From an uncultured Burkholderiales bacterium (lineage in GTDB: Bacteria > Pseudomonadota > Gammaproteobacteria > Burkholderiales > Burkholderiaceae_C), in NCBI GenBank assembly GCA_903892175.1, contig CAITHK010000083.1:1-42001 (forward strand): a stretch of DNA of 42,001 nt, in the 5' to 3' direction. A program made the position numbers and the translations under genes. The notes below the pieces were generated by a model. That model did not search any database, was not told the origin of the DNA, and saw only the letters and a list, made by a program, of their open reading frames with translations. Shown one piece after another: positions 1,124 through 33,065 of this stretch. Numbering within the stretch: position 1 is the stretch's first letter; each line of letters opens with the position of its first letter.

Positions 1124-1126
1124 GTC

Positions 1127-3184
1127 ATGAAGGTCAATATACGTCGGTTCAAGCTTCAAGCCCATCCCTCGCAGGCGATAGGGTTTTTTGTGCTCATCAC
1201 CTTGCTGGCAATTGCGATGTCGGCCGCTGCTTTGCTGTGGGATTTGCGCAAACGTGAGTTGGAACATTCGCGGGTCGAAACCATCAGCATTGCGCGCATG
1301 TTCATGGAGCAAACTGAACAAAGCTTCAGTGGCCTAGACACCTTGCTGGTGGGTGTGCAAGAACGCATGCAAAACAACTACGGCAGCCAATTCCCGCTGG
1401 ACAGTTTGCCGATTCATTTGTTGCTCAACACCCGAGCTTCTGGGGTGCGGCAGGTCAAGTCTTTGTTTGTGGTGGATGCGCAGGGTCAGGTCATCAACTC
1501 GTCGAGAGAAATTGCTGCACCTGCCATGTCGGTCCGTGACCGTGCGTATTTCAAAGCGTTTGCTGAAAATCACCAGCAAGGCCTTTTCATTGGCAATCCG
1601 CTGCGCAACCGAATCGACAATAGCTGGACGTTGTACATGGCCCGAAGCATTTCGGGTTCAAACGGTGTGTTCAAAGGCGTGTTGGTGGCGGCAGTGGATA
1701 TCCCACGCTTTGAGCAGCTCTACAACTTCATGAAGCTCGATTATTTGCGACCCATCGCGATCTATTTGAGCGATGGCACCTTGGTGGCGAGTTTGCCCCA
1801 TCGAGAGAACATGATGGGAGAAAAAACACCCGAGCTTAGTGAGGCTGACATTCAGAGCGTGGGTGCCGACGTGACCATGGTTGAGCACCGCAGCGGCGAC
1901 GGCGCGGTGTACGACTTTGCCGTGGGACGGGTGCAGAAATTTCCCTTGCTGGTGAGTGTCAGCAACGATGAGGAGCAATCTTTGGCGTCGTGGCGTGAAA
2001 CCGCCGTGCCCATCAGCTTGGGTGCCTTGTTCGTGTGTGTCTTCATTGGCATCGTCGCTGCAGTTTTGGTGCATGAATTGAAACGAGAAGCGGTGTTGAG
2101 CGATAAGCTGCGCGATGCCACTGACCGCTACCACCACACGATTGACTCGGTCATGGACGCGGTGGTCGCGGTGGACGAGACACTCACCATATGCTTGTTC
2201 AATCCAGCCGCTGAGTTGATGTTTGGGTACGCGGCCCCAGACATTCTGGGGCAACAGCTGTCGGTGCTGATCCCCGAGCGTTCGCGCGCTAAGCACGATG
2301 TGCACGTGTCCCGGTTCATGCAGTCGCAGGTGTCCTCGCGCACCATGAGTTTGGCGCCCCAGTTGGAAATCACCGGGCTGCGCCGCGATGGCAGCGAGTT
2401 TCCGATCGAGTCGACGATTTCACAAACCTGGATCGGTCACCACAAGCAACTCACGGCGGTGCTGCGCGACGTGACACAGCGGCGACGCACCGAGGCCGAT
2501 TTGCACCATACCAACCAGCAATTGCGCGAGCTGTCGGCCAAACTGGAAGATGTGCGTGAACAAGAGCGCGCACGCATTGCCCGAGAACTGCACGACGAAT
2601 TGGGTCAGCAGTTGACCGGTCTGAAATTGGACCTGTCGTGGCTGGCCAATCGCCTCAAAGACGGCCGAGAAGCCAGCCCAGACAAGGTGCTGGAAATGCG
2701 CCAGTCCTTGGATGCAGCCATCACGGCGGTACGCCGCATCTCGACGGAACTGCGCCCCTTGATTTTGGATGACTTGGGCTTTGGCGAAGCCGTGACGTGG
2801 CAAGCCGCAGAAATTGAAAAACGCAGCGGCTTGAAGGTGCAGCTCGACCTGCCTGCCGCCCCTTGGGTGAAAGACGATGCCCTGGCGACCGCCTTGTTTC
2901 GGATTGTTCAAGAGTCCTTGACCAATGTGATCCGCCATGCCCATGCCAGCTGTGTGCTGGTTAGATTGGTCCATGCCGAGGCGGACTTGGTGCTGACGGT
3001 CACGGACAACGGCGTGGGCTTGCCCACGCCCCTCAAGGGCGGCGGCATTGGCTTGGTCAGCATGCGTGAACGCGTGGTGGCTCTTGGCGGCGTTTTTTCG
3101 ATTGCCAACAACAACGAGCACGGTTTGACGGTGAAGGTGGTGGTGCCTTGGCCGGTGCTTGATGCATTGGGAGACACGGCATGA
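1127..3184 (+). CDS. Membrane sensor histidine kinase (double Cache, PAS, HisKA_3, HATPase)
   Basis: This is a 685-residue NarX/FixL-like two-component kinase. The order is: a membrane helix at about residues 18-38; a periplasmic double-Cache-like sensor at about 45-285 (RSYFKAF-like block VRDRAYFKAFAEN, and RSISGSNGVFKGVLVAAVD); a second helix at about 292-314; a PAS domain at about 330-445 (NPAAELMFGYAAPDILGQ); the HisKA_3 dimerisation box RIARELHDELGQQ with phosphoacceptor His489; and a C-terminal ATPase with N-box Asn600 (ESLTNVIRHAH), DNGVGLP and GIGLVSMRERV. The stop overlaps the next gene's start by four bases (ATGA), which pairs it with that response regulator. The ligand cannot be read from sequence; Cache domains generally bind small organic molecules. 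Its position directly upstream of the mto cytochrome cluster makes control of that cluster a reasonable inference. Confidence 0.93.
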   Translation: MKVNIRRFKLQAHPSQAIGFFVLITLLAIAMSAAALLWDLRKRELEHSRVETISIARMFMEQTEQSFSGLDTLLVGVQERMQNNYGSQFPLDSLPIHLLLNTRASGVRQVKSLFVVDAQGQVINSSREIAAPAMSVRDRAYFKAFAENHQQGLFIGNPLRNRIDNSWTLYMARSISGSNGVFKGVLVAAVDIPRFEQLYNFMKLDYLRPIAIYLSDGTLVASLPHRENMMGEKTPELSEADIQSVGADVTMVEHRSGDGAVYDFAVGRVQKFPLLVSVSNDEEQSLASWRETAVPISLGALFVCVFIGIVAAVLVHELKREAVLSDKLRDATDRYHHTIDSVMDAVVAVDETLTICLFNPAAELMFGYAAPDILGQQLSVLIPERSRAKHDVHVSRFMQSQVSSRTMSLAPQLEITGLRRDGSEFPIESTISQTWIGHHKQLTAVLRDVTQRRRTEADLHHTNQQLRELSAKLEDVREQERARIARELHDELGQQLTGLKLDLSWLANRLKDGREASPDKVLEMRQSLDAAITAVRRISTELRPLILDDLGFGEAVTWQAAEIEKRSGLKVQLDLPAAPWVKDDALATALFRIVQESLTNVIRHAHASCVLVRLVHAEADLVLTVTDNGVGLPTPLKGGGIGLVSMRERVVALGGVFSIANNNEHGLTVKVVVPWPVLDALGDTA

Positions 3185-3828
3185 CTCTGGAAATTTTAGT
3201 GGCCGATGACCACGCCATCATTCGCGATGGCTTGAAAAAAATCTTGGCCGACACCCCCGACCTGTGCGTGGCGGGTGAGGCGTCCAACGGCCACATGGCC
3301 TTGGAGATGGTGCGCAGTCGAGATTGGGATGCGGTGGTGTTGGATCTGTCCATGCCTGGGCGCCACGGCTTGGAGTTGCTCAAACTCATCAAGACGGACA
3401 AGCCCAAACTGCCCGTGTTGATCTTCAGCATGCACCAAGAGGAGCAATACGCAGTGCGGGCGATCCGCGCTGGCGCCTCAGGTTATTTGTCCAAAGAAGG
3501 CGACAGCGACCTGATCGTGCCCGCCATTCGCAAGGTGGCCCAGGGCGGGCGGTTCATCAGTCCCAAAGTGGCCGAGTTGCTGGCCGAGGACACTTTGCTG
3601 CACACCAGCAACCCATCGCACACCTTGTTGACCGACCGCGAGTTTGAGGTGTTCAGCCGCCTGGTGCGCGGTGTGAGTTTGACTGAGATGGCCCACGAAC
3701 TGTCTTTGAGTGTGAAGACCGTCAGCACCCACAAGTCACACATCTTGCTCAAGATGAACATGAGCCACCAAGTGGAGTTGGTGCGCTACGCCATTGACCA
3801 CAAACTGTTCGATCCCGTGCGCGAGTAA
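3181..3828 (+). CDS. NarL/FixJ-family response regulator, partner of the upstream kinase
   Basis: This 215-residue regulator has a receiver domain at residues 1-120 with the acidic pair Asp9-Asp10, phosphoacceptor Asp55 (VVLDLSMPG) and the conserved Lys in GYLSKEG. A LuxR-type helix-turn-helix lies at about 148-210 (LTDREFEVFSRLVRG, then VKTVSTHKSHILLKM). The start overlaps the kinase stop by four bases, typical of translational coupling, so the two form one system. It ends 157 bases before mtoD. That gap holds a 9-base inverted repeat which could be its binding site; this is inference. The family and partner assignments are secure, the target genes are not. Confidence 0.93.
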   Translation: MTLEILVADDHAIIRDGLKKILADTPDLCVAGEASNGHMALEMVRSRDWDAVVLDLSMPGRHGLELLKLIKTDKPKLPVLIFSMHQEEQYAVRAIRAGASGYLSKEGDSDLIVPAIRKVAQGGRFISPKVAELLAEDTLLHTSNPSHTLLTDREFEVFSRLVRGVSLTEMAHELSLSVKTVSTHKSHILLKMNMSHQVELVRYAIDHKLFDPVRE

Positions 3829-3834
3829 TACCAA

Positions 3835-3858
3835 ACAACTCCTTGGCCTAGGAGTTGT
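3835..3858. promoter_or_regulatory. Perfect 9-base inverted repeat between the response regulator and mtoD
   Basis: The arms ACAACTCCT and AGGAGTTGT are exact reverse complements separated by six bases (TGGCCT). No run of T follows, which argues against a simple intrinsic terminator for the regulator gene. It could be an operator for the adjacent NarL-type regulator: a TATAGC element at 3884-3889 would put the centre of the repeat about 50 bases upstream of a start site. It could also be a weak, Rho-assisted terminator. The repeat is seen directly; the role is inferred. Confidence 0.4.
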
Positions 3859-3924
3859 CTGATGCCCAACTTCATCCCCCGCCTATAGCCGCCAGAGGGC
3901 TGAAAAACCAAAATTTCATCTAAG

Positions 3925-3962
3925 CACACAGATTTTGCAATTCAAAGCCTGTGTGGTTTTTT
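3925..3962 (+). terminator. Intrinsic-terminator-like hairpin in front of mtoD
   Basis: The arms CACACAG (3925-3931) and CTGTGTG (3949-3955) pair exactly. An inner helix TTTG/CAAA sits inside a 2x2 internal loop, and a G plus six T follow (3957-3962). This is the form of a Rho-independent terminator. It ends only 23 bases before the mtoD start, so either it ends the kinase/regulator transcript or it is an attenuator in the mto leader. A promoter between it and mtoD would leave almost no leader, and no clear -35/-10 pair is visible there. Confidence 0.55.
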
Positions 3963-3985
3963 CAACCTTTTGATGAGGTGACCAC

Positions 3986-4342
3986 ATGGCACACACAACA
4001 TATTCCGCCATCGCCGCCAGCTTGATTGGCGCAGCTTGCTTGTTCCTGGCTCCCGCTGCACAGGCCTTGGATGTCGAGGCCGCCAAGGCCTTGGCCAAGC
4101 AAAACAACTGCTTGAAATGCCACGCGATTGACAAAGAAAAAGACGGTCCGGCCTACCACAAGGTGGCCGAGAAATACAAAGGCAAGGCCAATGCAGAGGC
4201 CCGTTTGATCGAGCACATCACGTCCGGTGAAAAAGCCAAGTTCGCTGATGGCCACGAAGAAGAACACAAAATTGTCAAGACCTCGCCCCCCAAAGACATG
4301 GAGCAGATCAAGAACTTGGTGCAGTGGATCTTGGCTCAGTAA
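3986..4342 (+). CDS. mtoD: Periplasmic monoheme c-type cytochrome, MtoD-like
   Basis: A 118-residue precursor with a Sec signal peptide that ends in AQA at residues 25-27, leaving a mature protein of about 91 residues with one haem site, CLKCH (42-46). Size and a C-terminal helix (IKNLVQWILAQ) match small class I cytochromes c. In Sideroxydans lithotrophicus the same gene order mtoD-mtoA-mtoB-cymA is known, where MtoD carries electrons across the periplasm. The usual class I axial Met motif (PMPPN before the last helix) appears here as KTSPPK, without Met. His90, His94 or Met105 are candidate sixth ligands. A GAGGTG ribosome site lies about 6 bases upstream of the ATG. The cytochrome call is firm; the MtoD name rests on context. 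Confidence 0.85.
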   Translation: MAHTTYSAIAASLIGAACLFLAPAAQALDVEAAKALAKQNNCLKCHAIDKEKDGPAYHKVAEKYKGKANAEARLIEHITSGEKAKFADGHEEEHKIVKTSPPKDMEQIKNLVQWILAQ

Positions 4343-4359
4343 AGACATAGGGGACAACA

Positions 4360-5370
4360 ATGACAACACTTAGAAAACTCTTGACGTCTTGCCTGCTGGT
4401 CGCAGGCATGGGGGCTGGGGTCTTGTCCTGGGCCGCAGACAGCAACTTGCCCAACTTAGGTCAAGAAAACAACAAAGCGGCCATAGCCAAAGCGGCGTTG
4501 TCAAAAGATGCGGTGTGTACTGGGTGCCATGACGAAAGTGAAACAGCGCCGGTGTTGTCTCTCTACCAAACTAAGCACGGCGTGCGCGGCGACATACGCA
4601 CACCCACTTGCCAGTCCTGCCACGGTGCCAGTGACAAGCACGTCAAAGGTGACCCCAACGTCAAGGGACGTGCTGCGCCTGATGTGGTGTTTAAAAAAGG
4701 TGCGTTTGCCCAGTCTGGTGACAAAGAGCGTTCCGAGCAGTGCTTGACCTGCCACAAAGGCGCCAAGCGCAGCAACTGGGACGGTGCGCAACACCAAAAC
4801 AATGGCGTGGCTTGCAATAGCTGCCACCAAGTTCACAAGCCCACCGACAAGGTGCTGAACAAAAAAACACAAACCGAGGTGTGCTTCACCTGCCACAAAG
4901 AGCAACGGGCTGACAGCAAAAAAATCTCGCATCACCCTATTGAAGAGGGCAAAGTGGTGTGCTCAGACTGCCACAACCCACATGGTTCAACAGGCCCCAA
5001 GTTGTTGAAGAAAAACACGGTGACCGAAACCTGCTACCAGTGCCATGCTGAAAAACGCGGTCCGTTTTTGTTCGAACACCAGCCTGTGTCAGAAGACTGT
5101 GCCAATTGCCACAGCCCCCACGGTTCGAACATTGCGCCCTTGCTGAAATCGCGCCCACCGTTCATGTGCCAAGAGTGCCATGACGGAACACACGCCAGTG
5201 GCACCCCCGTTGGCCCCAATGCGTCAGGCTACCAAGGCGGCTTGACCAAAAACAACGCCAGCGGTGTGGCGCAGTACCCCAATAAAAACATTGTGGGGCG
5301 TGCCTGTATGAATTGCCACAGCCAAGTGCACGGATCGAACAGCCCTGCTGGTGGCTACCTCCAGCGCTGA
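4360..5370 (+). CDS. mtoA: Decaheme c-type cytochrome MtoA (MtrA/PioA/DmsE family)
   Basis: A 336-residue precursor with a signal peptide of about 26 residues (VLSWAA). It contains exactly ten CXXCH sites: CTGCH, CQSCH, CLTCH, CNSCH, CFTCH, CSDCH, CYQCH, CANCH, CQECH and CMNCH. The only other cysteine is in the signal peptide. Isolated histidines suited to bis-His ligation recur between them (TKHG, DKHV, AQHQ, QVHK, SHHP, NPHG, FEHQ, SPHG, GTHA, QVHG). This family sits inside an outer-membrane barrel and moves electrons between the cell surface and periplasm: inward in MtoA/PioA iron oxidisers, outward in MtrA metal reducers. Length matches MtrA/MtoA and not the longer PioA. It lies 17 bases after mtoD and directly before the barrel gene. 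Direction of flow cannot be proven from sequence. Confidence 0.95.
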   Translation: MTTLRKLLTSCLLVAGMGAGVLSWAADSNLPNLGQENNKAAIAKAALSKDAVCTGCHDESETAPVLSLYQTKHGVRGDIRTPTCQSCHGASDKHVKGDPNVKGRAAPDVVFKKGAFAQSGDKERSEQCLTCHKGAKRSNWDGAQHQNNGVACNSCHQVHKPTDKVLNKKTQTEVCFTCHKEQRADSKKISHHPIEEGKVVCSDCHNPHGSTGPKLLKKNTVTETCYQCHAEKRGPFLFEHQPVSEDCANCHSPHGSNIAPLLKSRPPFMCQECHDGTHASGTPVGPNASGYQGGLTKNNASGVAQYPNKNIVGRACMNCHSQVHGSNSPAGGYLQR

Positions 5371-5391
5371 TGTATGAAATTGGAGATCATG

Positions 5392-7764
5392 ATGAGCTCG
5401 CATAAAACCAATCTGAACCTCAGTGTCATGGCCTTGGCTGTGCTCACGGCCCTGACCGCCCTGTCGGCCCGCGCCGACGACGACGAAGCTGCAGCCTTGA
5501 AGAAACCCGAGAACACGATTGAATGGGGCGTGCTGGGTGTCTCCCAAAGTTCGGCCAAGTTCGGCGAATACTCTGGGCTGAACAAAAGCGGCGCATACGG
5601 CATCGGCAACCTCGATGTGCGCGGAGGCAGTGCGTACGATGAGAACGAAACCGGTGGCACCCAGCGCTGGTCCATCCGGGGCAGCAACTTGGGGCTTAGT
5701 TCGCGTGATGCGCAGGCCACAATCAGCGACCAAGGCTCTTGGAATCTGAACCTGCAATACGATGCGCTGCAGCACAACCTCACGGACAGCTACCAAACTC
5801 CCTACTCAGGTGGCAACGGGGGCAATGTTTTTTCTTTGCCGGGGTTTGGCCTGATAGCCAACACCAACAATCCCACGCTCACCGGCGGTATCTCGGCCGC
5901 TCAGCTGGCCGCGTTCAGAACGATGGACGTTGGCACCACGCGTAAAAACACCACCCTGAGTGGCGGCGTGGTGATCGATTCGCATCTCAATTACACCTTT
6001 GACTACAACCACCTCGATCAGTCAGGTGCGAAGTTGATGGCCTTTGGCATTGCAGGGGTTGGAGGCGCCACAGGGCAAGCGGTGTCGATCTTGCCCATGC
6101 CTATCAACTACCAAACCGACAACTACAACGTGGCCATGAACTGGCGTCAGGACGACGCCTACGCCTCCATGTCGATCGTGGGTTCTGTGTTCAGGGATGG
6201 CTACGACAGCGTGCAGTTTCAAAGTTGGGCTGGCGCCAGTACCACCCAGCTGATGCCTACGGCGCCGAACAACTCGTTCAACCAAGTCAATCTGTCGGGC
6301 GGCTACAAGCTCGCACCGCAGACCAAGCTGGCAGCCAATTTTTCTTATGGTGGCGGCTCGCAAAACGTACCCTTCGTATCGACCAATGGCTTGTTATTGA
6401 ACAACAACATTCCCAGCTCATTGAACGGTTCGATCATCAACACGCATGCCGATGCGAAATTGACCCATCAAGCCAGTCGTGAGTTGCTGATGTCGGTGGC
6501 CTATAAATACGACCAGCGCAACAACCTGACTACCTCGAACTTATACAACTTCAATGCGATCGATGGGGGTAACACGGCCAACTACCCCAATACCCCATTG
6601 AGTACCCGCAAAGAACAGCTGGAAGTCGCAGGGGATTACCGTTTGAAACAAGACCAGCATCTGCGCATGTCGGTCAGCCATGAAAATCTTGACCGCTGGT
6701 GCAACCAATTTGCGTCGGGTGGTGGTACGGCTTACACCGCCGGTGCCAACTGTGTGGTGGCTAAATCAAGCACTGACGACAAATTGGATGCCACTTACCG
6801 CATCAAAACTGCCGAAGACACACAGTTCAAAGTGGGCATGGGCTACAGCGATCGCAAAACCATTTCTGATCCCTATGCGTTGGCCAGCTTCATCAGTCAA
6901 AACGGTGCAGTGCCCGGTCCCGTGCCATCGTCCAACACCACAACCAAAGGACAAAACGCGGGTGACTATTACGGCTTTTATCCTGTGTTTTCTGCTTCTC
7001 GTCAGCAGCAATATGTCAAGGCCAGTGTCAATTGGCAGGCCAACGAGTTGTTGGAGTTGAGCGTCAGTGGCCGCTACAGCGATGACAAATACCCAGACAG
7101 CACCTATGGTGTACAAAACGGTAAGAGCTGGAGCTTGAACCTGGATGCCACCTACAACTACGCAGACAACGGTTCATTGAATGCCTTTGTCACCCAGCAG
7201 TCGCGTCAACGGGACATGACCAATTTGCAGCGCTACACCACCACAGCCAGTGCGGCCAGTGCCACTGCCCTCAACATTCCTGCAGTGGCCAGTTGGACCA
7301 ACAAGTTAACGGACGAAGATTTGACGGTGGGTTTCGGATTCAAGCAAGGCGGATTGATGGCCGGCAAATTTGAGTTGGCCGGGGACATGAGTTATTCCTT
7401 GGGCAACGCAGGCTACAACACACAGCTGAACTACCCCGGCGCCACCTTGGGCGTGCCCACGGGAAGCAACATCTTGACCTGCAGCAGCGCGCAAATTTTG
7501 TCATGCGGTCAGTTGCCAGATATTCGATCAAACACCACTCGTATCAAACTCACGGGCACCTACCAAGTCGACAAATCTTCCAAAGTGGTGCTGATGTATT
7601 TGCAGCAACGCTTGACCAGCAGCGACTACTACTACAACGGCTACCAAGGCCCGGCCAATGCCACGACCCAAGGTAACAACCCCAACACCTTGTTGCCCAC
7701 GTACCAGACCTCCGGCAGTTACTCTGTCAATGCGTTTGGGGCCAGTTTCATTCACAGTTTTTGA
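5392..7764 (+). CDS. mtoB: Outer-membrane beta-barrel MtoB (MtrB/PioB family)
   Basis: A protein of about 790 residues that forms the outer-membrane sheath around the decaheme cytochrome. It has a signal peptide (LNLSVMALAVLTALTALSARA), long stretches of alternating polar and aromatic residues typical of beta strands, and a C-terminal Phe (GASFIHSF) as recognised by the barrel-assembly machinery. The track starts at 5374, but the GGAG at 5382-5385 is best placed for the ATG at 5392; 5389 is also possible. It lacks the N-terminal CXXC found in MtrB of metal-reducing gammaproteobacteria. Its four cysteines lie in two pairs far from the N-terminus. This agrees with the MtoB/PioB side of the family. 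It follows mtoA immediately. Confidence 0.92.
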   Translation: MSSHKTNLNLSVMALAVLTALTALSARADDDEAAALKKPENTIEWGVLGVSQSSAKFGEYSGLNKSGAYGIGNLDVRGGSAYDENETGGTQRWSIRGSNLGLSSRDAQATISDQGSWNLNLQYDALQHNLTDSYQTPYSGGNGGNVFSLPGFGLIANTNNPTLTGGISAAQLAAFRTMDVGTTRKNTTLSGGVVIDSHLNYTFDYNHLDQSGAKLMAFGIAGVGGATGQAVSILPMPINYQTDNYNVAMNWRQDDAYASMSIVGSVFRDGYDSVQFQSWAGASTTQLMPTAPNNSFNQVNLSGGYKLAPQTKLAANFSYGGGSQNVPFVSTNGLLLNNNIPSSLNGSIINTHADAKLTHQASRELLMSVAYKYDQRNNLTTSNLYNFNAIDGGNTANYPNTPLSTRKEQLEVAGDYRLKQDQHLRMSVSHENLDRWCNQFASGGGTAYTAGANCVVAKSSTDDKLDATYRIKTAEDTQFKVGMGYSDRKTISDPYALASFISQNGAVPGPVPSSNTTTKGQNAGDYYGFYPVFSASRQQQYVKASVNWQANELLELSVSGRYSDDKYPDSTYGVQNGKSWSLNLDATYNYADNGSLNAFVTQQSRQRDMTNLQRYTTTASAASATALNIPAVASWTNKLTDEDLTVGFGFKQGGLMAGKFELAGDMSYSLGNAGYNTQLNYPGATLGVPTGSNILTCSSAQILSCGQLPDIRSNTTRIKLTGTYQVDKSSKVVLMYLQQRLTSSDYYYNGYQGPANATTQGNNPNTLLPTYQTSGSYSVNAFGASFIHSF

Positions 7765-7800
7765 TCCACACATTTCAACCCTTTGGGTGTGATGAGCTTT

Positions 7801-7829
7801 GAGGGGTGCTTTGAACCCCTCGCTTTTTT
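7801..7829 (+). terminator. Intrinsic terminator between mtoB and cymA
   Basis: Arms GAGGGGT (7801-7807) and ACCCCTC (7815-7821) surround a 7-base loop and are followed by GC and six T (7824-7829). This is a classical Rho-independent terminator inside what otherwise looks like one operon. Partial read-through would set a lower level of cymA and the downstream haem-lyase genes than of mtoDAB. Alternatively cymA may have its own promoter, though no clear one is seen in the 26 bases left before its start. Confidence 0.75.
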
Positions 7830-7855
7830 AATTGAACTGACCGGAGTACAACCTC

Positions 7856-8452
7856 ATGGACAACGAACAACCCGGGTTTTTCAAACGCGTGTGGCGCTTC
7901 TTGAAGAAACCAAGTGCCAAATATTCGCTGATCGGGATCGCCAGCACATCGTTTGTGGCGGGCATTATTTTTTGGGGTGGGTTCAACACCGCCATGGAGA
8001 TGACCAACACCTTGGAGTTTTGCACCACCTGTCACGAAATGCGTGACACGGTGTACCAAGAGTACAAAGAGACCATCCACTACAGCAACCGCACCGGTGT
8101 GCGCGCCATTTGCTCTGATTGTCATGTGCCCAAAGATTGGGTGCACAAAATGATCCGCAAGTCCAAGGCCAGTTTTGAGGTCTGGGGCAAGATCACCGGC
8201 AGCATCGACACCAAAGAAAAATTCGAAGCCAAGCGCATGGAGTTGGCAGGTCACGAGTGGCAACGCATGAAAGAAAGCAATTCACGCGAATGCCGCAATT
8301 GCCACAACTTTGATGCGATGAGCGCTGAATTGCAAAAACAAACGCCTTACAGAAAGCACATGAAAGCCAAAGAAGAAGGCAAAACATGCATCGACTGTCA
8401 CAAAGGCATTGCCCATCAATTGCCCAAAGAATACGAAGACCCTGACGAATGA
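7856..8452 (+). CDS. cymA: Tetraheme NapC/NirT-family cytochrome (CymA/MtoC-like)
   Basis: A 198-residue inner-membrane protein with a cytoplasmic N-terminus, one membrane anchor at about residues 23-45 and four haem sites in the periplasmic part: CTTCH (56-60), CSDCH (86-90), CRNCH (146-150) and CIDCH (178-182). NapC/CymA proteins exchange electrons between the quinone pool and periplasmic cytochromes. In the Mto pathway this member would pass electrons from MtoD to quinone. The length fits the short NapC/CymA type, not the pentaheme TorC type. A GGAG ribosome site lies about 10 bases before the ATG. Its stop overlaps the ccmF start (ATGATGG), which ties cytochrome synthesis to haem-attachment genes. 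Confidence 0.93.
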   Translation: MDNEQPGFFKRVWRFLKKPSAKYSLIGIASTSFVAGIIFWGGFNTAMEMTNTLEFCTTCHEMRDTVYQEYKETIHYSNRTGVRAICSDCHVPKDWVHKMIRKSKASFEVWGKITGSIDTKEKFEAKRMELAGHEWQRMKESNSRECRNCHNFDAMSAELQKQTPYRKHMKAKEEGKTCIDCHKGIAHQLPKEYEDPDE

Positions 8453-10377: not shown

Positions 10378-10378
10378 G

Positions 10379-10846
10379 ATGCACATGAAGACCCTGGCGG
10401 TGGTGGTGTGGTGTCTTTGCACCATGGCCTCGGCTTGGGCCAAAGAGGCTGTGCCTTTGGCCGAAGACCCGTTGGTGGAGCAGCGTTTGATCGTGATCTC
10501 TGAGGAGATGCGCTGTTTGGTGTGCCAAAACGAGTCTTTGGCTGGCTCGCGCGCCGAGTTGGCGCAAGACCTCAGGCGTGAGCTGCGCGCGTTGATCCAG
10601 AAAGGCAAAAGTGATGCGGACATCAAAGCATTCATGGTGGCGCGGTATGGCGACTTTGTCTTGTACCGCCCGCCTGTGAGCCAACGAACTTGGCTGCTTT
10701 GGCTGGGACCCTTTGCGTTGCTGCTGTGGGCCTTGGTGATGCTGTTGCGCCACCTGCGCACGCTCAAGCCCCTTGAAACGCCTCGCGAGTTGTCGGCCCA
10801 AGAGCAGCAGCGGGTGCAGGAATTGATGCAGAAAGATGCGCCATGA
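10379..10846 (+). CDS. ccmH: CcmH (CcmL-type) apocytochrome thioreductase, copy 1
   Basis: A short CcmH of about 155 residues. It has a signal sequence (TLAVVVWCLCTMASAWA), a periplasmic domain with the redox pair in MRCLVCQNES, and one C-terminal membrane helix (LLWLGPFALLLWALVMLL). CcmH keeps the apocytochrome haem-site cysteines reduced and belongs to the haem-lyase complex. The track starts at 10367, overlapping ccmF. The ATG at 10379 is preferred because AGGTG sits four bases ahead of it; 10385 is also possible. It overlaps ccmI by four bases. It keeps the same LRC/MRC core as copy 2 at 17303, so both copies look functional. Confidence 0.93.
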   Translation: MHMKTLAVVVWCLCTMASAWAKEAVPLAEDPLVEQRLIVISEEMRCLVCQNESLAGSRAELAQDLRRELRALIQKGKSDADIKAFMVARYGDFVLYRPPVSQRTWLLWLGPFALLLWALVMLLRHLRTLKPLETPRELSAQEQQRVQELMQKDAP

Positions 10847-12051: not shown

Positions 12052-12055
12052 AGTG

Positions 12056-12074
12056 TCAGCGCCCGTCGCGCTGA
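12056..12074. terminator. Hairpin between convergent ccmI and hemerythrin genes
   Basis: Arms TCAGCGC and GCGCTGA pair exactly around a five-base loop, directly after the ccmI stop and 10 bases from the 3' end of the opposing hemerythrin gene. There is no T run on either side, so termination would probably need help from Rho. Confidence 0.4.
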
Positions 12075-12084
12075 GTGGACCTGT

Positions 12085-12624
12085 TCAGATGTGGGCGGCC
12101 AGATAGCTGGGACGGTGCATCATGTGCAAGGACAAATCTAGGGCTTGCATGTGGTTTGGGTTGCGACTCAGGATGCGATGCGCCAAGGGTAAAAACTCTC
12201 GCTCTTCAAAACGTGCGTGGTGTTGGTACTGCTCCACCAACTGGGTCAAGCAATCGGTGTTGAGTTGATGGTCGCTGCCTTTGGCTATTTTTTTCAACTC
12301 AGGTTCTATCGTGTGCCAAAGCGATTCGAGCCTGCGGTGTTGGCGCACCAACTCTTCCACCATGTCGTCCACGCGCGCCCGCTCTGAGCCGAGCGTTGCG
12401 CTTTGGCTGACGGCAGGAAACAAAGCGCGCTCCTCATCGCTGTGGTGGACTTGCACCGAGTTTTTGAAAAAGGCCAAGGCGTTGAGGGCTGTTTTTTTGG
12501 CCAATTCGGCAGGGGCCAACAGTGCTGGCAACTCGGCCAAGCGGTCGAGCTGGATCACGATGCCGAAATGCGAATGGGTGAAGTCTTCCAGTGGATGGCT
12601 GGATGCTTGGGTGCTTGTGTTCAT
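12085..12624 (-). CDS. Hemerythrin HHE-domain protein 2
   Basis: A 179-residue protein predicted to form a four-helix bundle that binds a di-iron centre. Visible ligand-type motifs are FTHSHFG, VQVHHSDEERALFP, LVRQHRRLE and YQHHARFEEREFLPLAHRI. No signal peptide or membrane segment is seen, so it should be cytoplasmic. The track extends to a TTG at 12645, but the ATG at 12624 has a good AAGGGG site six bases ahead, so that start is used. It lies 17 bases after another hemerythrin gene and is probably co-transcribed. Family members bind oxygen, nitric oxide or iron, or act as sensors; which applies here is unknown. Its place between two cytochrome-maturation sets is unusual. Confidence 0.85.
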   Translation of the reverse strand: MNTSTQASSHPLEDFTHSHFGIVIQLDRLAELPALLAPAELAKKTALNALAFFKNSVQVHHSDEERALFPAVSQSATLGSERARVDDMVEELVRQHRRLESLWHTIEPELKKIAKGSDHQLNTDCLTQLVEQYQHHARFEEREFLPLAHRILSRNPNHMQALDLSLHMMHRPSYLAAHI

Positions 12625-12641
12625 GGTTTGCCCCTTGTGTG

Positions 12642-13226
12642 TCAATGGCGCCCCAGTCCGATGGGTTCGGGTGCATTCATGGTGATGCGTGTGAACAATC
12701 GGTCGTACAAGGGCTCATGGGGGTATTTGCCGGTGAGCGGGTCGGCGTTGGTTTCAAACGCAGCATCCAAGGCCGCCCAGTCTTCGTCGGTCAAGACCTT
12801 GAGGGCTTCCGGAATCACCACGGTTTCTTCCATTTGCATGTGCTGCACATAGAAGTCTAAAAATGTGTTTGTGGCGTGTTCGAAGGCTGGGCGTCTGGAT
12901 TCACCCAGCAATTCCCAAGCCAGCAACAGGTGCTGGAGTTCTCGCACATTGGACTCACCCTTGGCATGGTCTTTTTCCAGTTGCTGGATCACCACCTGGC
13001 AGTGGGGTGAACGTTTGGCGACAGGAGGAAACAAGAGCGCAGACTCTTTGGTGTGGTGCAAGCGCTCTGGAAACTCGTCGATGTAGAACAGCATGGCGCG
13101 CAGCACATCGAAAAACATTTCAGGCTGGTCTTTGGGGCCTCGCTTGAGCATCATGCGCAAAGACTGCAGCATGGCAGACAAGGCAGCATGTTCTTCGCGG
13201 ATGATTCGAATACTGGGGTGGTTCAT
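12642..13226 (-). CDS. Hemerythrin HHE-domain protein 1
   Basis: A 194-residue hemerythrin-like protein. Helical segments carry the expected iron-binding residues: IIREEHAALSAML, ERLHHTKESALLFPPV, LEKDHAKGES and FYVQHMQMEETVVIPEAL. No export signal is seen. The ATG at 13226 has an AGGAGA ribosome site eight bases upstream. It is transcribed away from ccmC across a shared 180-base intergenic region and leads a two-gene unit with the next hemerythrin. The family is confident, the physiological role is not. Candidate roles are protecting against oxygen or NO, or handling iron in a cell that exchanges electrons with iron. Confidence 0.87.
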   Translation of the reverse strand: MNHPSIRIIREEHAALSAMLQSLRMMLKRGPKDQPEMFFDVLRAMLFYIDEFPERLHHTKESALLFPPVAKRSPHCQVVIQQLEKDHAKGESNVRELQHLLLAWELLGESRRPAFEHATNTFLDFYVQHMQMEETVVIPEALKVLTDEDWAALDAAFETNADPLTGKYPHEPLYDRLFTRITMNAPEPIGLGRH

Positions 13227-13289
13227 GAGTGTGTCTCCTGGTGTCTTTTTGGAAGTGATTTCAGAATCTCACGGACTGAAGCATTCCGA

Positions 13290-13365
13290 GTTGATCCAAG
13301 TCAACAGATGTCTTGGCAGGGTCATCCCTTTGTCTCGTGTTGGACAGGTGGCAAGTGCGTAAAAT
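13290..13365 (+). promoter_or_regulatory. Possible control region of the ccmC operon
   Basis: Between the divergent hemerythrin and ccmC genes there is a GTTGA/TCAAC inverted repeat with a six-base centre (13290-13305). Further on is a TAAAAT -10-like element (13360-13365), preceded at 16 bases by a weak TGTTGG. It is the only candidate promoter for ccmC that could be found here, and the match is modest. Confidence 0.25.
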
Positions 13366-13407
13366 CGGTTCACTGACACAGCGTTCACAGCGCGCAAAGA
13401 CACATCG

Positions 13408-14166
13408 GTGATACATCCCACGCGAACCGGCATCCACTGGTTTTATTACGCTGCTCCGCAGACTTTTTATGGCTTGGCAGCTCGCCTGTGGCCTGGGTGC
13501 GCCGTCTTGGCCAGCGCCTTGTTGGCGGCAGGCCTATGGCTGGGCTTCATGGTGGCGCCCACCGATTTCCAGCAAGGTGAGGGCTACCGCATCATCTTTG
13601 TCCATGTCCCCGCATCGTGGATGTCGATGGTGATTTACTTGGCCATGGCGTTTTGGAGCGTGCTGGGGCTGACCTTCAACACACGCTTGTCGGGCATGAT
13701 GACCCGCGCCTTGGCGCCCACTGGGGCCTTGTTTGCTTTTCTGTCGTTGTGGACCGGTGCGCTGTGGGGCAAGCCGATGTGGGGCGCTTGGTGGGTGTGG
13801 GATGCACGTTTGACCTCAGAGCTGATTCTTTTCTTTTTGTATTTGGGCTATATCGCCTTGACGTCGGCAATCGACGACACCCGTCGGGGCGACCGCGCCG
13901 GAGCGCTGGTGGCCATCGTGGGGGCGATCAATGTGCCGATCATTTATTTCTCGGTCAAATGGTGGAACACCTTGCACCAAGGCGCGTCAGTCTCCTTGAC
14001 CAAATCGCCTTCCATGGCCGCGGTCATGCTGTGGGCCATGTTGTTGATGGCTTTGGCTTTTTGGTTGTACACCCTGGCCTTGGTGCTCTACCGTGTGCGC
14101 ACCTTGATCTTGCAGCGTGAACGCCACGCCGCGTGGGTGCAAGACTTGCAGGAGGTGCAGCAATGA
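13408..14166 (+). CDS. ccmC: CcmC haem-handling protein
   Basis: A 252-residue inner-membrane protein with six predicted helices. It has the haem-handling motif WGAWWVWDARLTSELIL and flanking histidines (IIFVHVPASW, WWNTLHQGAS). CcmC loads haem onto CcmE. The only usable in-frame start is GTG at 13408: the frame is open back to 13363 but holds no ATG, GTG or TTG. It is the first gene of the second ccm operon and overlaps ccmD by four bases. In most System I operons ccmA and ccmB come directly before ccmC; here they are absent and the hemerythrin pair occupies that side. Confidence 0.95.
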   Translation: MIHPTRTGIHWFYYAAPQTFYGLAARLWPGCAVLASALLAAGLWLGFMVAPTDFQQGEGYRIIFVHVPASWMSMVIYLAMAFWSVLGLTFNTRLSGMMTRALAPTGALFAFLSLWTGALWGKPMWGAWWVWDARLTSELILFFLYLGYIALTSAIDDTRRGDRAGALVAIVGAINVPIIYFSVKWWNTLHQGASVSLTKSPSMAAVMLWAMLLMALAFWLYTLALVLYRVRTLILQRERHAAWVQDLQEVQQ

Positions 14167-14354
14167 CCTGGAACAGTTGGGCTGATTTTTGGGCCATGGG
14201 TGGCTATGCGGTGTATGTCTGGGCCAGCATGGGCATGACCTTTGGCTTGTTGGCCCTGGAAGTGTTGCAAGCGCGTTGGGCGCGGGCCCAAGTTCTGGCG
14301 CAGTTGCGCGCCGAACGTGTCTTGGCCGAATTACCCGCAGAGGATGTGCATTGA
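14163..14354 (+). CDS. ccmD: CcmD small membrane protein
   Basis: A 63-residue protein with one membrane helix ([21 protein letters not shown]) and a basic cytoplasmic tail, typical of CcmD. CcmD helps release haem-loaded CcmE from the CcmABC complex. The track extends it upstream to a GTG at 14133 inside ccmC, but the ATG at 14163 overlaps the ccmC stop by four bases as elsewhere in this operon. It overlaps ccmE by one base (TGATG). Confidence 0.88.
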
Positions 14355-14806
14355 TGAAACCCAGAACCAAACGCTTTGCTCTGATTGCCGCAGGCATCAT
14401 GGTGTTGGCCGCGGCAGCGGCTTTTGTGTTGAATGCTTTTCAAAGCAACTTGGTGTTCTTTTTCACGCCGACCCAAGTCAACCAGGGTGAAGCCCCCAAG
14501 GGCCGCATGTTTCGTGCCGGTGGCATGGTGAAAGAAGGCAGTTTGCAACGCGACGGCAACACGGTTCGGTTTGTCATCACCGACACCGCGAAAGACATGA
14601 CGGTCACCTTTGTGGGCTTGCTGCCCGACTTGTTCAAAGAGGGCCGTGGTGTGGTGGCGCAAGGCAAACTGGGTGATGACGGTGTGTTTGTGGCCAGCGA
14701 GGTGCTGGCCAAGCACGACGAAAACTACATGCCGCCTGAAGCCAAGCATGCCTTGGACCAAGCGGCTGCGGCGAAGGCTGCGCAATCGGTGAAAGAGACC
14801 CCATGA
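14354..14806 (+). CDS. ccmE: CcmE periplasmic haem chaperone
   Basis: A 150-residue protein with an N-terminal membrane anchor (about 9-29) and an OB-fold periplasmic domain. It ends with the haem-binding motif [12 protein letters not shown], where His121 is the covalent haem ligand and Tyr125 the axial ligand. CcmE carries haem from CcmC to CcmF. The track's longer frame from 14189 runs through ccmD; the ATG at 14354 is the family start. Only one ccmE is present in the window, so both CcmF copies would draw on it. Confidence 0.95.
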
Positions 14807-16731
14807 GCGCTGAGTTTGGACATTTCGCTTTGATTTTGGCGGCGGTGGTGGCCCTGCTGCAAGGTGTGCTTCCTTTGCTGGGTACGTATGTGCGCGGCAC
14901 GCAGATGCAAATCACCTTGCAAAGCTTGGCGCGCCCCACGGCAGCCCTGCAGTTTGTGTTGGTGGCTCTGGCTTTTGCGGCGCTGGCGGCGTGCTTTTTG
15001 AACAACGATTTTTCAGTGCAGTACGTGGCACAACATTCCAACTCTTTGCTGCCCAAGCCCTACCAGTTGGCTGCAGTGTGGGGTGGCCACGAAGGCTCAC
15101 TCTTGTTGTGGGTGTTGCTGCTGGCGCTGTGGTCGGTGGCGGTGGCGCTGTTCTCGCGCAGTTTGCCGCTGGACATGGTGGCTCGGGTGCTGAGCGTGTT
15201 GGGTTTGATTTCGGTGGGCTTTTTACTCTTTATCCTGACCACCTCGAACCCGTTTGAGCGCTTGTTGCCTGCCGCGTTGGATGGCCGTGACCTGAACCCC
15301 TTGTTGCAAGACCCCGGTTTGGTGATCCACCCGCCCATGCTCTATATGGGGTATGTCGGCATGTCGGTGGCGTTTGCCTTTGCGGTGGCTGCTTTGCTCA
15401 GTGGCCGCTTGGACGCTGCATGGGCACGTTGGTCACGCCCCTGGACCGTGATTGCCTGGACTTTTCTGACGTTTGGCATTGGTCTGGGCTCTTGGTGGGC
15501 GTATTACGAACTGGGCTGGGGCGGTTGGTGGTTTTGGGACCCGGTCGAAAACGCCTCGTTGATGCCTTGGTTGGTGGCCACCGCCTTGATCCATTCCCTC
15601 ATGGTGACCGAGAAGCGCGGCAGCTTCAAAGCCTGGACGGTGTTGTTGGCCATTGCCGCGTTTTCGCTCTCGCTGCTGGGCACGTTCTTGGTTCGCTCTG
15701 GGGTACTGACCTCGGTGCATGCCTTTGCGTCTGACCCCAGGCGCGGTGTTTTTGTGCTGATCTTTTTGGCGGTGGTGGTGGGATCTTCGTTGACCTTATT
15801 TGCCTGGCGCGCACCGCGTGTGACCTTGGGTGGCCGCATGAACTTGGTGTCGCGCGAGTCGTTCTTGCTGGCCAACAGTGTGTTGTTGGTGGTGGCCACG
15901 GCCGCGGTGCTGTTGGGCACGCTGTATCCCTTGATCATTGACGCCTTGAATTTGGGCAAGCTGTCAGTGGGCCCACCGTATTTCAATGCCGTGTTTGCGC
16001 CGCTGTTGGTGCCGGTGGTGTTTTTGATGATTCCGGGCTCGATCTCACGTTGGCGCGAGGCGCACCTGGCCGAGTTGGCGCATCAGCTGCGTTTCACCGC
16101 TGCCGGTGCCTTGGCGGTGGCCTTGGTCTGGCCTTACTTTTTGGGCGGCTGGTCGGTGGGCACGGTGTTGGGATTTTTCTTGGGCGCGTGGGTGGCCTTG
16201 GGGACGGCGCAGCAAGTGTTTGAGCGTGTGCGCAAGCCTGGTCGCGTGGGCCTGTCGTTTTGGGGGCAGCAAGTGGCCCACTTTGGCATGGCGGTGTTGG
16301 TGATGGGTGTCACCGGCGTCAAGTCTTATGAGGTTGAGCGGGATGTGCGCATGCACGTGGGCGATGTGGTGACGATTGCGCCCTACACCTTCCGTTTGGC
16401 CCAACTCAACGAGGTGCTCGGGCCCAACTACAAGGCCGTGCGCGCCGATGTGCAGGTGCTGCGCGATGGCCAGGTGGTCGAGCTGTTGCAACCCGAGAAG
16501 CGCCGCTATTTTTCGTCGGCCATGCCGATGACCGAGGCGGCCATCGATTCGGGCTTTATGCGTGATTTGTATGTGTCATTGGGTGACGCGCTGGACGATG
16601 CGCGCACCGAGTGGAGCATGCGTGTTTACTACAAGCCTTTCGTGCCCTGGCTATGGGGCGGGGTGTTGCTGATGGTGTTGGGCGGTGTGTTGGCCGCCTT
16701 GGACCGCAGATACCGCAAGGTCCAAGCATGA
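14803..16731 (+). CDS. ccmF: Cytochrome c haem lyase subunit CcmF, copy 2 (main operon)
   Basis: A 642-residue polytopic protein, paralogous to and the same length as the copy at 8449. It has the motif [19 protein letters not shown] and the same key histidines ([36 protein letters not shown]). It joins haem from CcmE to apocytochromes. It overlaps ccmE and ccmG by four bases each. Differences from copy 1 are spread through the helices and the C-terminal periplasmic domain, while the functional motifs are kept. That points to two working proteins, not one decaying copy. Confidence 0.95.
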
Positions 16732-17306
16732 AAAAATTTCTGATTCCTTTGGGGTTGTTTCTCGGCCTGGTGGTGTTTTTGGCCATTGGTTTGAACCGTG
16801 ACCCGCGCGAAATCCCATCGCCGTTGATCAACAAACCCGCGCCTGAATTCAGCTTGCCCACTTTGAACGGTGACACGCCTTTCTCGCCTGCCGACATGCG
16901 CGGCAAGGTGTGGATGTTCAATGTCTGGGCCACATGGTGTGTGGCGTGTCGCGAAGAGCACCCGGTGTTGGTGGCGTTTGCCCAAAAGTACAGCGTGCCC
17001 ATCGTGGGTTTGAGCTACAAAGAAATTCAGCCGCAAGACGAGGCCGCCAAGCAAAGCGTGGAAACAAAACTCCGCGTGGCGCGCGAACGCAGCCAAGTCT
17101 GGCTCCAGCGCCATGGCAACCCCTACGTCAACTCGGTGATGGACTTGGATGGCCGTGTGGGCATCAACTATGGGGTCTACGGTGTACCCGAGACCTACAT
17201 CATCGACAAAGAAGGTGTGATTCGCTTCAAGCATGTGGGCGCTGTGACCCCTGCCTTGCTGGCTGAAAAAATCATGCCGCTGATCGAAAAGCTGAATCAA
17301 TCATGA
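16728..17306 (+). CDS. ccmG: CcmG/DsbE thioredoxin-like protein
   Basis: A 192-residue membrane-anchored thiol-disulfide protein. It has an N-terminal helix at about 4-22 and a thioredoxin fold with the redox pair WATWCVACREEHP (Cys71, Cys74) and the cis-proline loop GVYGVPETYIID. CcmG reduces the cysteines of apocytochromes or CcmH before haem attachment. The track begins at 16611 inside ccmF; the ATG at 16728 overlapping the ccmF stop is the family start. There is no second ccmG in the mto-linked set, so this one presumably serves both. Confidence 0.95.
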   Translation: MKKFLIPLGLFLGLVVFLAIGLNRDPREIPSPLINKPAPEFSLPTLNGDTPFSPADMRGKVWMFNVWATWCVACREEHPVLVAFAQKYSVPIVGLSYKEIQPQDEAAKQSVETKLRVARERSQVWLQRHGNPYVNSVMDLDGRVGINYGVYGVPETYIIDKEGVIRFKHVGAVTPALLAEKIMPLIEKLNQS

Positions 17307-17773
17307 GCTTGCTGCAACGTTGTTGGCTTGGCTTGGCCTTTTGTGTGGCCGCCTTGAATGCGCACGCGCAAGCAGGGCCTGAGGGCGCGCCGCTGGCCCA
17401 AGACCCGGTGGTGGAAGCCCGCTTGGTGGTCTTGTCGCAAGAACTGCGCTGCTTGGTGTGTCAAAACGAATCCTTGGCCTCGTCGCAGGCCGAATTGGCC
17501 GATGACTTGCGCCGCGAAGTGCGCGAGCTGATTCGACAAGGCAAGACCGACCCAGAGGTGAAAGATTTTTTGGTGTCCCGCTACGGCGACTTTGTGCTCT
17601 ACCGCCCCGAGGTCAAACCTTTGACCTGGGTGCTGTGGTTTGGCCCATTTGTGTTGCTGCTGGTGGCGCTGGTTCTGCTCGGTCGGTATGTGCAAGAACG
17701 CCGCCTGCAGATCAAACCCCAGACCCTCAGCGACGAAGAACGCGCCCGTGCTGAGCAACTGTTGAAAGGCTGA
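17303..17773 (+). CDS. ccmH: CcmH (CcmL-type) apocytochrome thioreductase, copy 2
   Basis: A 156-residue protein with a signal peptide ending in NAHAQA, a periplasmic three-helix domain containing LRCLVCQNES, and a C-terminal membrane helix (VLWFGPFVLLLVALVLLG). It works with CcmG and CcmI to prepare apocytochromes for CcmF. It overlaps ccmG by four bases. It is very similar to the copy at 10379 through the redox core and differs in the signal peptide and tail. Confidence 0.94.
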   Translation: MSLLQRCWLGLAFCVAALNAHAQAGPEGAPLAQDPVVEARLVVLSQELRCLVCQNESLASSQAELADDLRREVRELIRQGKTDPEVKDFLVSRYGDFVLYRPEVKPLTWVLWFGPFVLLLVALVLLGRYVQERRLQIKPQTLSDEERARAEQLLKG

Positions 17774-17774
17774 T

Positions 17775-19112
17775 GTGACGCCCGCTCTTGTTTTCATCTT
17801 GGCTGCCACCGGCTTGACTTTGCTGGTTGTGGCGGTGTTGTGCGTGGCGCTGTGGCGCGGTGCTCTGGCGGGTGCCCGCGCAAGCTTGGGGGGCACACCT
17901 GCGGAGCAGCAAGACCTGCCGACGCAGGCCAATGCCGCGGTCTACCGTGACCAGTTGTTGGATTTGGAGCGCGAACACGCCCTGGGCCATCTGAGCGATG
18001 AAGAACTGCAAGTTGGCCGAGATGAGCTGACCCGCCGTTTGCTGGAAGACGTGGGCCCCGTGACGCTGATGCACGCCGACACCGTTGGCGATGTGCGGGG
18101 GAATGATGCCGTCACCTCGGCACAGGAGACCCGCCTGCGCAAGCCTTGGTGGCTGATGTTGGGGGTGATCTTTTGGGTGCCGGTCTTGTCGATGGGCATG
18201 TACAGCGTTTTGGGTGAGCCCCAGGCGCTCGATCCCTTGGCGGCTCAGCAAGGCATGGGCAACGAGGGTGAAATCACCCCTGAGAAGTTGGTGGCCATGG
18301 CCACTGCATTGACGCGACGTTTGCAAGATGAGCCCAACCAAGTCGATGGCTGGGTCATGTTGGGGCGGGTCCAGCGTGCCCTGGGTCGCTACGCTGAAGC
18401 CGATGAGGCCTTGCGCCGTGCGCTGGCGCTCAGCCAAGACGACAACGTGTGGATCGAACGTGCCGAGGTGTTGGCGCAAAAAAATGGCGGCAATTTCGCC
18501 GGTGAACCCTGGGCCATCATCCAGCGTGTCTTGACCGCTGACCCGCACCAACTCAACGCCTTGTTGTTGGCCGGCAGTGCGTCATATGCCGAAGACAACT
18601 TCCGGTCTGCTTTGCGTTTTTGGGAGCGTGCCCGTGAAGAGGTGTCGCCCGATTCACCCGACGCGCCTGAACTCGACCGCGCCATTGCCGAGGCGCGCAG
18701 CAAGTTGGGCTTGCCGCCCGCGCTGCCGCGTGCCGACAGCGTGAGCGAGCGCGATGCGGCCATTCAGGCCTCGAGCATCAGTGGCCGGGTGAGTTTGGTG
18801 AGCGAGTTGGCGGGCAAGGTGGCCCCCACCGACACCGTGTTTGTGTACGCCACTCCCGTGACGGGGTCGCGCATGCCGCTGGCCATTGTGCGCACCACGG
18901 CGGCCAAGTTGCCTTTTGACTTTGTGCTCGACGACAGCACGGCGATGAATCCAGCAGCCAAGCTGTCAGATGCGCAGGAGGTGACGGTGCGGGTGCGCAT
19001 TTCCAAGAGCGGTCAAGCCACCCAACAAGCCGGAGATTTGGGCGTGAGTGTGAGCCCCGTCAAACCCGGCAGCACCGGGCTGAATTTGATGGTGCGCGAC
19101 GCCTTGCGATGA
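17775..19112 (+). CDS. ccmI: CcmI-type TPR apocytochrome chaperone, copy 2
   Basis: A 445-residue protein. Membrane helices lie at about 3-28 and 120-140, with a cytoplasmic loop (AAVYRDQLLDLEREHALGHLSDEEL) between them. TPR repeats follow at about 160-300 and a C-terminal domain (DTVFVYATPVTGSRMPLAIVR). It starts with GTG one base after the ccmH stop. It guides apocytochromes to the lyase. It closes the main ccm operon and is followed by a strong palindromic terminator. Confidence 0.92.
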   Translation: MTPALVFILAATGLTLLVVAVLCVALWRGALAGARASLGGTPAEQQDLPTQANAAVYRDQLLDLEREHALGHLSDEELQVGRDELTRRLLEDVGPVTLMHADTVGDVRGNDAVTSAQETRLRKPWWLMLGVIFWVPVLSMGMYSVLGEPQALDPLAAQQGMGNEGEITPEKLVAMATALTRRLQDEPNQVDGWVMLGRVQRALGRYAEADEALRRALALSQDDNVWIERAEVLAQKNGGNFAGEPWAIIQRVLTADPHQLNALLLAGSASYAEDNFRSALRFWERAREEVSPDSPDAPELDRAIAEARSKLGLPPALPRADSVSERDAAIQASSISGRVSLVSELAGKVAPTDTVFVYATPVTGSRMPLAIVRTTAAKLPFDFVLDDSTAMNPAAKLSDAQEVTVRVRISKSGQATQQAGDLGVSVSPVKPGSTGLNLMVRDALR

Positions 19113-19141
19113 ATTGACTGCGACTTGACGTGGCCAAAACA

Positions 19142-19165
19142 AAAGCGGCTCCATGGAGCCGCTTT
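19142..19165. terminator. Perfect palindromic, probably bidirectional terminator
   Basis: The 12-base half AAAGCGGCTCCA is followed directly by its exact reverse complement. It lies between ccmI and a convergent response regulator gene. The plus strand carries CTTTGTGTT after it, and the minus strand reads TTTTGTTTTGG after it, so it can stop transcription from both sides. Confidence 0.8.
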
Positions 19166-19187
19166 GTGTTGGGGTGAGGGTTGGGGT

Positions 19188-19784: not shown

Positions 19785-19800
19785 ATTTTCTCTCCTGCTT

Positions 19801-33062: not shown

Positions 33063-33065
33063 TCA

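Follow-up and report, generated by a model that had tools for sequence, protein, structure and literature searches.

The window analyzed here, 42,001 nucleotides long, is the whole of contig CAITHK010000083.1 (C83) in the metagenome-assembled genome (MAG) GCA_903892175.1 of an uncultured Burkholderiales bacterium, a freshwater relative of Comamonadaceae. At positions 3986-8452 it carries what sequence comparison supports well as a genuine, complete Mto-type extracellular electron transfer conduit, predicted to consist of the outer-membrane pair MtoAB, the monoheme cytochrome MtoD and a NapC/NirT-type quinone partner. The parts of such a conduit are already known and no new mechanism is shown; the host is the unexpected element, since it is not a classic iron-oxidizing autotroph. 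Mto usually comes up in connection with iron oxidizers that are chemolithoautotrophs, Gallionellaceae and the like. A literature search, with most subscription journals outside its coverage, returned no paper reporting Mto in freshwater bacteria of this kind, which have genes for a type II photosynthetic reaction center and no match to ribulose-1,5-bisphosphate carboxylase/oxygenase (RuBisCO).

The conduit genes

Four intact open reading frames (ORFs) on the forward strand make up the locus:

3986..4342, + strand: mtoD, 118 aa, one CXXCH (CLKCH); predicted periplasmic monoheme class I cytochrome c, electron shuttle
4360..5370, + strand: mtoA, 336 aa, ten CXXCH counted; MtrA/DmsE/PioA-family decaheme cytochrome
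5374..7764, + strand: mtoB, 796 aa, directly downstream of mtoA; MtrB/PioB-family outer-membrane beta-barrel with a C-terminal Phe and no N-terminal CXXC
7856..8452, + strand: imoA/cymA-type gene, 198 aa, four CXXCH; predicted tetraheme NapC/NirT inner-membrane quinone oxidoreductase
7800..7822, + strand: terminator-like hairpin with T-run between mtoB and imoA, from a consensus scan

The profile matches of all four products are well outside what chance would give. The MtoD product matches the Cytochrom_C profile (3.8e-09), and its best solved structure (4XXL, E 9e-41) is that of MtoD from Sideroxydans lithotrophicus ES-1, with which it shares 63% identity over 115 columns. MtoA scores 290 bits against the DmsE-family decaheme profile TIGR03508 (cut-off 192) and has MtrA of Shewanella baltica (6R2Q_A, E 6e-67) as its best solved structure; an AlphaFold2 (AF2) model of MtoA without heme reached a mean predicted local distance difference test score (pLDDT) of 57 and was set aside. 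MtoB matches MtrB_PioB PF11854 (4.5e-109) and TIGR03509 (401 bits, cut-off 240). Its best solved structure by sequence is MtrB, 6R2Q_B (E 1.5e-16), which is also the top fold match of its AF2 model (mean pLDDT 79.8; E 1e-39; template modeling score 0.73 by query and 0.89 by target). The last product matches NapC/NirT PF03264 (6.5e-74) and scores 295 bits against TIGR02161, slightly below the cut-off of 310.6. In an alignment of 18 sequences that does not include ES-1 ImoA, all four of its heme motifs are invariant and it is 64-93% identical to the other aligned loci.

A preliminary description of this DNA had listed a monoheme cytochrome, a decaheme with exactly ten CXXCH, a barrel ending in Phe and a tetraheme NapC protein in the order of the Sideroxydans mto cluster, and all of these are present. 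Its label cymA for the last gene is right as to type, a tetraheme NapC/NirT gene, but imoA-type is the better name, as the ES-1 orthologue is now called ImoA.

The genes are closely spaced, with gaps of 17 bp between mtoD and mtoA, 3 bp between mtoA and mtoB, and 91 bp between mtoB and imoA, whose stop codon overlaps the start of a ccmF gene. Terminator-like sites show no enrichment over shuffles in this region. A hairpin with a T-run stands at the equivalent mtoB-imoA position in one related locus (L028), with different stem bases, which suggests that read-through into imoA may be partial; judging from the sequence, the hairpin may reduce it. Many independent assemblies have the four genes in this order, among them that of a sister species (L024) whose MtoA is 98% identical.

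Family placement and surface partners

In a tree of 134 MtoA-type proteins, the window MtoA falls within a 62-row set (Shimodaira-Hasegawa-like approximate likelihood ratio test, SH-aLRT, 98) from Comamonadaceae, Gallionellaceae, Ferrovaceae, Rhodocyclaceae, Methylophilaceae and others. Most of these loci include MtoD and many a NapC/NirT gene. In the sequence around each of the 62 there is no MtrC-type decaheme neighbor. ES-1 MtoA itself is outside the tree and is represented by two loci chosen via MtoD (L051 and L072; MtoD 81-86% identical to that of ES-1), both of which share a 38-row set (SH-aLRT 98) with the window. Of the twelve MtrC-linked rows, ten fall elsewhere, in the set that contains the S. 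baltica structure sequence, and the remaining two in another betaproteobacterial set. The MtoB tree gives the same grouping. Both trees come from a quick search with SH-aLRT support only, that of MtoB under a simpler model and with some long branches joined, so their deep branches deserve little trust. The preliminary description had named MtrAB and DmsEF as the sets whose company would speak against an Mto identity. The window lies outside the MtrC-linked and S. baltica MtrA sets, but no row of the trees was verified as DmsEF or PioAB, and the comparison thus stands for the former sets.

Two side observations concern other mto loci. On a contig titled Desulfovibrionaceae (L082), an mtoD-mtoA-NapC/NirT-mtoB set is nested in the betaproteobacterial clade, likely from horizontal transfer or misbinning. 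In each of three other loci (L063, L069 and L091), MtoA genes and their barrels stand next to one another in two or three copies, which suggests local duplication or stacking of conduits.

The barrels also differ in their cysteines. An N-terminal CXXC is absent from the window MtoB and from the barrels of its clade, and present in the scanned MtrC-linked gammaproteobacterial barrels; this MtrB motif is said to mark out metal-reducing Gammaproteobacteria (Wee et al. 2014, cited in PMC12175506). C443 and C460 of MtoB are invariant in 38 of 38 aligned MtoB proteins, where MtrC-linked MtrB have the N-terminal CXXC instead, and could possibly form a disulfide specific to the MtoB clade.

No OmcA/MtrC gene had been noted in the window, and a profile search bears this out and extends it to the host's own assembly, where nothing exceeded the cut-off (best E 0.24). 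The same profile scores MtrC of other loci far above the cut-off, including one from the same family as the host (G740). None was found among 84 members of the genus either, in a scan whose built-in controls were silent. Proteins of 660-710 aa with eight hemes, encoded near mto in some relatives, were considered as MtrC and rejected by the profile; most of those scanned combine multiheme parts with weak cytochrome b561-like or formate-dehydrogenase-gamma-like parts and are MtoC-like, probably located in the inner membrane, and one (L186) is a different cytochrome. No pioC gene for a high-potential iron-sulfur protein (HiPIP) adjoins the conduit, whose neighbors are response regulator/mtoD and imoA/ccmF, the rest of the genome not having been searched for it, and no DmsA/DmsB-type or molybdopterin reductase was found among the identified neighbors.

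Among known systems, the mtoDAB-cymA/imoA operon of ES-1 (Slit_2498-2495; PMC12016527) has these four kinds of gene in an identical order, and resembles the window in the sequence of MtoD, in having no MtrC match and in the NapC/NirT partner. ES-1, however, is a chemolithoautotroph that also has Cyc2, whereas the window's host has a reaction center and no RuBisCO match; the window operon comes with a linked two-component system and ccm genes, and ES-1 has an extra monoheme gene (Slit_2494) downstream of imoA. The PioABC conduit of Rhodopseudomonas palustris TIE-1, likewise of the MtrA/MtrB family and without MtrC, also belongs to a phototroph whose reaction center is of type II, but it includes the HiPIP PioC where the window has MtoD and ImoA, and TIE-1 is a photoautotroph on Fe(II), unlike a host without a RuBisCO match. 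With MtrCAB of Shewanella (S. baltica, 6R2Q) and of a betaproteobacterium (G740), the decaheme and barrel core is common, and the MtoB model superposes on MtrB; the window differs by its lack of MtrC/OmcA and of the N-terminal CXXC, and by its position in other clades. The mto sets of Ferrovaceae, Rhodocyclaceae and freshwater Comamonadaceae (L026-L058) share both clade and order, many with a histidine kinase-response regulator (HK-RR) pair upstream and ccm genes downstream, but the window has in addition a duplicated ccmF-H-I and hemerythrins, and nrdJ and the mto cassette lie between ccmAB and ccmC. By their labels, most of the close mto loci belong to Comamonadaceae or Burkholderiales MAGs, with one Limnohabitans and one Ramlibacter.

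The host and the direction of electron flow

The host MAG comprises 3.39 Mb in 312 contigs and is 96.6% complete and 6.6% contaminated. Its assembly, in which other CO2-fixation routes were not searched for, gave no match to the RuBisCO large subunit, which makes lithoautotrophy unlikely. It does carry pufL and pufM of a type II reaction center (L239, contig C281, 5000-24000), in a photosynthesis cluster with crtI, crtB, crtC, crtD, crtA, bchY and bchC; a four-CXXCH ORF directly after pufM is read as pufC by its position. The preliminary description had proposed oxidation of Fe(II) or another extracellular donor, or else an outward-running conduit that reduces metals, and had favored the inward direction. 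The iron-oxidizing lithotroph implied by this is a poor fit to the genome in its simple form, with no RuBisCO match beside a type II reaction center, and heterotrophy supplemented by external electrons fits better than lithoautotrophy.

An mtoB-type barrel gene is present in 12 of 84 sampled species of the genus, the host included, with the complete four-gene setting wherever contigs show it. Form I RuBisCO, defined by matches below 1e-80, was found in none of the 12 carriers, among which there is no closed genome, and in 21 of the 72 other species (Fisher p 0.03, uncorrected for relatedness or incomplete genomes); this negative association is weak. The mto hosts of this genus do not look like Calvin-cycle autotrophs, and the conduit is here separated from autotrophy.

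We propose, at a probability of about 0.6, that the host uses its conduit to supplement heterotrophy with electrons drawn from Fe(II), from its complexes with organic matter, or from minerals and humics in reduced form. The data show the gene identities, the MtoB fold, the clade, the genomic setting, pufL and pufM, and the lack of RuBisCO and MtrC matches, whereas complex formation, donor, direction, coupling to the reaction center and regulation are inferred from homology and context. Electrons would cross the outer membrane through MtoA, a ten-heme wire inside the MtoB barrel, travel across the periplasm on the soluble monoheme cytochrome MtoD, and be exchanged with the quinone pool by the ImoA-type NapC/NirT protein, the adjacent ccm genes serving to mature the conduit hemes. 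At an oxic-anoxic boundary, they could add to respiration or light-driven flow during growth on organic carbon; such uptake in a cell without RuBisCO would save organic carbon via respiration, reverse electron flow or the reaction center, with no Calvin-cycle CO2 fixation. The same roles of MtoAB as wire, MtoD as periplasmic carrier and ImoA as quinone contact have been proposed for ES-1 (PMC5566968, PMC12016527). In ES-1, Mto proteins showed enrichment on magnetite and on dissolved Fe(II)-citrate were largely undetected, MtoD being undetected in every culture (PMC12016527); the contrast between magnetite and citrate points to a donor in the form of solid or complexed Fe(II).

Several points weigh against a firmer claim of uptake. 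Direction is not readable from sequence; published trees do not part MtoA from MtrA according to direction (PMC10734462, PMC8805035); some Gallionella and Sideroxydans MAGs do have MtrC (PMC10734462); and in a Shewanella host, ImoA of ES-1 oxidizes quinol and stands in for CymA (PMC9600427). Since MtoA and MtrA are inseparable in this respect and ImoA oxidizes quinol, the absence of MtrC is weak evidence for inward flow, which is still favored (again at about 0.6) but less strongly than the missing MtrC had been taken to imply. As no RuBisCO was found, the electrons cannot feed a Calvin cycle. Reaction-center genes are present in 8 of the 12 mto carriers and in 47 of the 72 others (Fisher p 1.0), and the idea that mto is tied to them across the genus was accordingly rejected.

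The same ImoA result speaks for outward flow, in which ImoA would oxidize quinol and MtoD with MtoAB would hand the electrons on to acceptors outside the cell, such as dissolved Fe(III) or humics, as a means of electron disposal by a heterotroph under anoxia. An organic-carbon lifestyle with surplus reductant is plausible for a cell in which no RuBisCO was found, but the lack of a match to an MtrC/OmcA surface reductase and of an N-terminal CXXC in MtoB, and the Gallionellaceae-type mto sets as nearest proxies, make this use unlikely. We give still less credence to a reversible redox valve, taking up or discharging electrons as set by the outside redox state and the quinone pool, for example with light or oxygen in stratified lakes. 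Reversibility of Mtr/Mto systems has been discussed (PMC10734462, PMC8805035), the reaction center could shift the quinone pool with light, and the linked sensor kinase has a dCache domain; on the other hand, there is no direct evidence of bidirectional use in any mto-only organism considered here, and some mto-bearing congeners have no reaction-center match.

It is very improbable that the genes work with a surface reductase, for instance dimethyl sulfoxide (DMSO) reductase, as a DmsEF-like set or one dedicated to another substrate. MtoA does match an NCBIfam profile called "DmsE family", but that family takes in MtrA, DmsE and MtoA alike; moreover, the identified neighbors include no molybdopterin reductase, MtoA lies away from the Shewanella-type set in the tree, and the conduit is linked to MtoD and ImoA. 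A binning error, with either the mto contig or the photosynthesis contig foreign and the combination of mto and reaction center without RuBisCO an artifact, would be in keeping with a MAG of this contamination and contig number, yet it too is very improbable. A congener (G056) shows the same combination, mto and reaction center with equally spaced pufL and pufM and no RuBisCO match, which argues against such an error, as do the near-identical contig of the sister species with the same mto layout, the 8 of 12 mto-bearing congeners with a reaction center and 0 of 12 with form I RuBisCO, and a downstream ccmF on the mto contig that groups with the copies of the genus.

Electron uptake may be more closely connected with light. 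In freshwater planktonic bacteria with an aerobic-anoxygenic-type reaction center and no RuBisCO, Mto might feed electrons from Fe(II), minerals or humics to the quinone pool or, via MtoD and the tetraheme PufC as a possible acceptor of its electrons, to the reaction center itself. This photo-litho-heterotrophy is a tentative and rather doubtful idea; if it is true, light and external electrons would together spare organic carbon with no Calvin-cycle CO2 fixation.

Regulatory and heme-maturation neighbors

The genes around the conduit are as follows:

17-1123: last part of nrdJ, with which the window begins
1127..3184, + strand: sensor histidine kinase (Pfam dCache_1, PAS, HisKA_3, HATPase_c)
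3181..3828, + strand: LuxR/NarL-type response regulator (Pfam Response_reg and GerE), preceding mtoD
8449-10377, 10367-10846 and 10843-12051, + strand: second ccmF, ccmH and ccmI set (Pfam CcmF_C, CcmH, Ig_CycH/TPR_CcmH)
12085..13226, - strand: two hemerythrin-domain proteins (PF01814 in both), between the two ccm sets
13408-14166, + strand: ccmC (TIGR01191), first gene of the genus-type ccm block 13408..19112
~14354-14806, + strand: ccmE, named by sequence and position only
14803-16731, + strand: ccmF (PF16327, which matches both ccmF copies)
~16725-17306, + strand: ccmG/dsbE, named by sequence and position only
17303-17773 and 17775-19112, + strand: ccmH and ccmI

An HK-RR pair stands directly upstream of mtoD in many relatives (for example L026, L029, L031, L034-L036, L043, L046 and L048), and the full order HK-RR-mtoD-mtoA-mtoB-imoA is found again in L026, L031, L034-L036, L043 and L046. 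This conserved linkage suggests that the two-component system probably switches the conduit on. Within the 157-bp mtoD leader (3828-3985), an inverted repeat that is nearly perfect, ACAACTCCT...AGGAGTTGT, is accompanied by a second hairpin with a T-run behind it; both are partly kept in the sister species and could be an operator or attenuator.

Directly after mto, ccm genes (ccmABC-E-F-G-H-I or its visible part) also occur in L026, L031, L033, L035, L036 and L074. The unit is thus larger than four genes, with sensor, conduit, quinone partner and often a heme-maturation operon. In the window, imoA is followed by the extra ccmF-ccmH-ccmI, the two hemerythrins on the opposite strand, also found in the sister species, and then ccmC-E-F-G-H-I; hemerythrin relatives lie near mto in L028, L037 and L038 as well. 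The upstream ccmF clusters with its counterpart in L075, an mto locus of a different lineage, and with one copy of the mto-less congener G059, and the downstream ccmF with the copies of the rest of the genus. These different clades and the 63% identity of the two copies led us to reject a recent duplication of the downstream gene, and the extra ccmF-H-I set looks imported. CcmF was detected in 76 of 84 genus members and ResB in none of the 84, so cytochrome maturation system I is genus-wide, and the adjacent ccm genes as an mto-specific maturation system were rejected in that form.

The missing ccmAB do not indicate a broken ccm system, a reading we rejected because these genes are on another contig of the host (C110). 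That contig ends in the first part of nrdJ (L162, 5524-6870), whose last part opens the window; in the sister species this ribonucleotide reductase gene is intact and ccmA-ccmB-nrdJ-HK-RR-mto lies on a single contig. The split nrdJ and this layout indicate that C110 and C83 are probably adjacent in the host genome. An Rfam scan of window positions 1-20000 returned no family. Farther along, at 31050-36595, TctB-TctA transporter genes are followed by two different gamma-glutamyltranspeptidases in tandem.

The conserved linkage of the conduit with a two-component system and heme-maturation genes offers a handle for regulation studies and heterologous transfer. For the biology of the host and its relatives, our findings suggest that iron or humics may be electron-exchange partners of ordinary lake bacteria.

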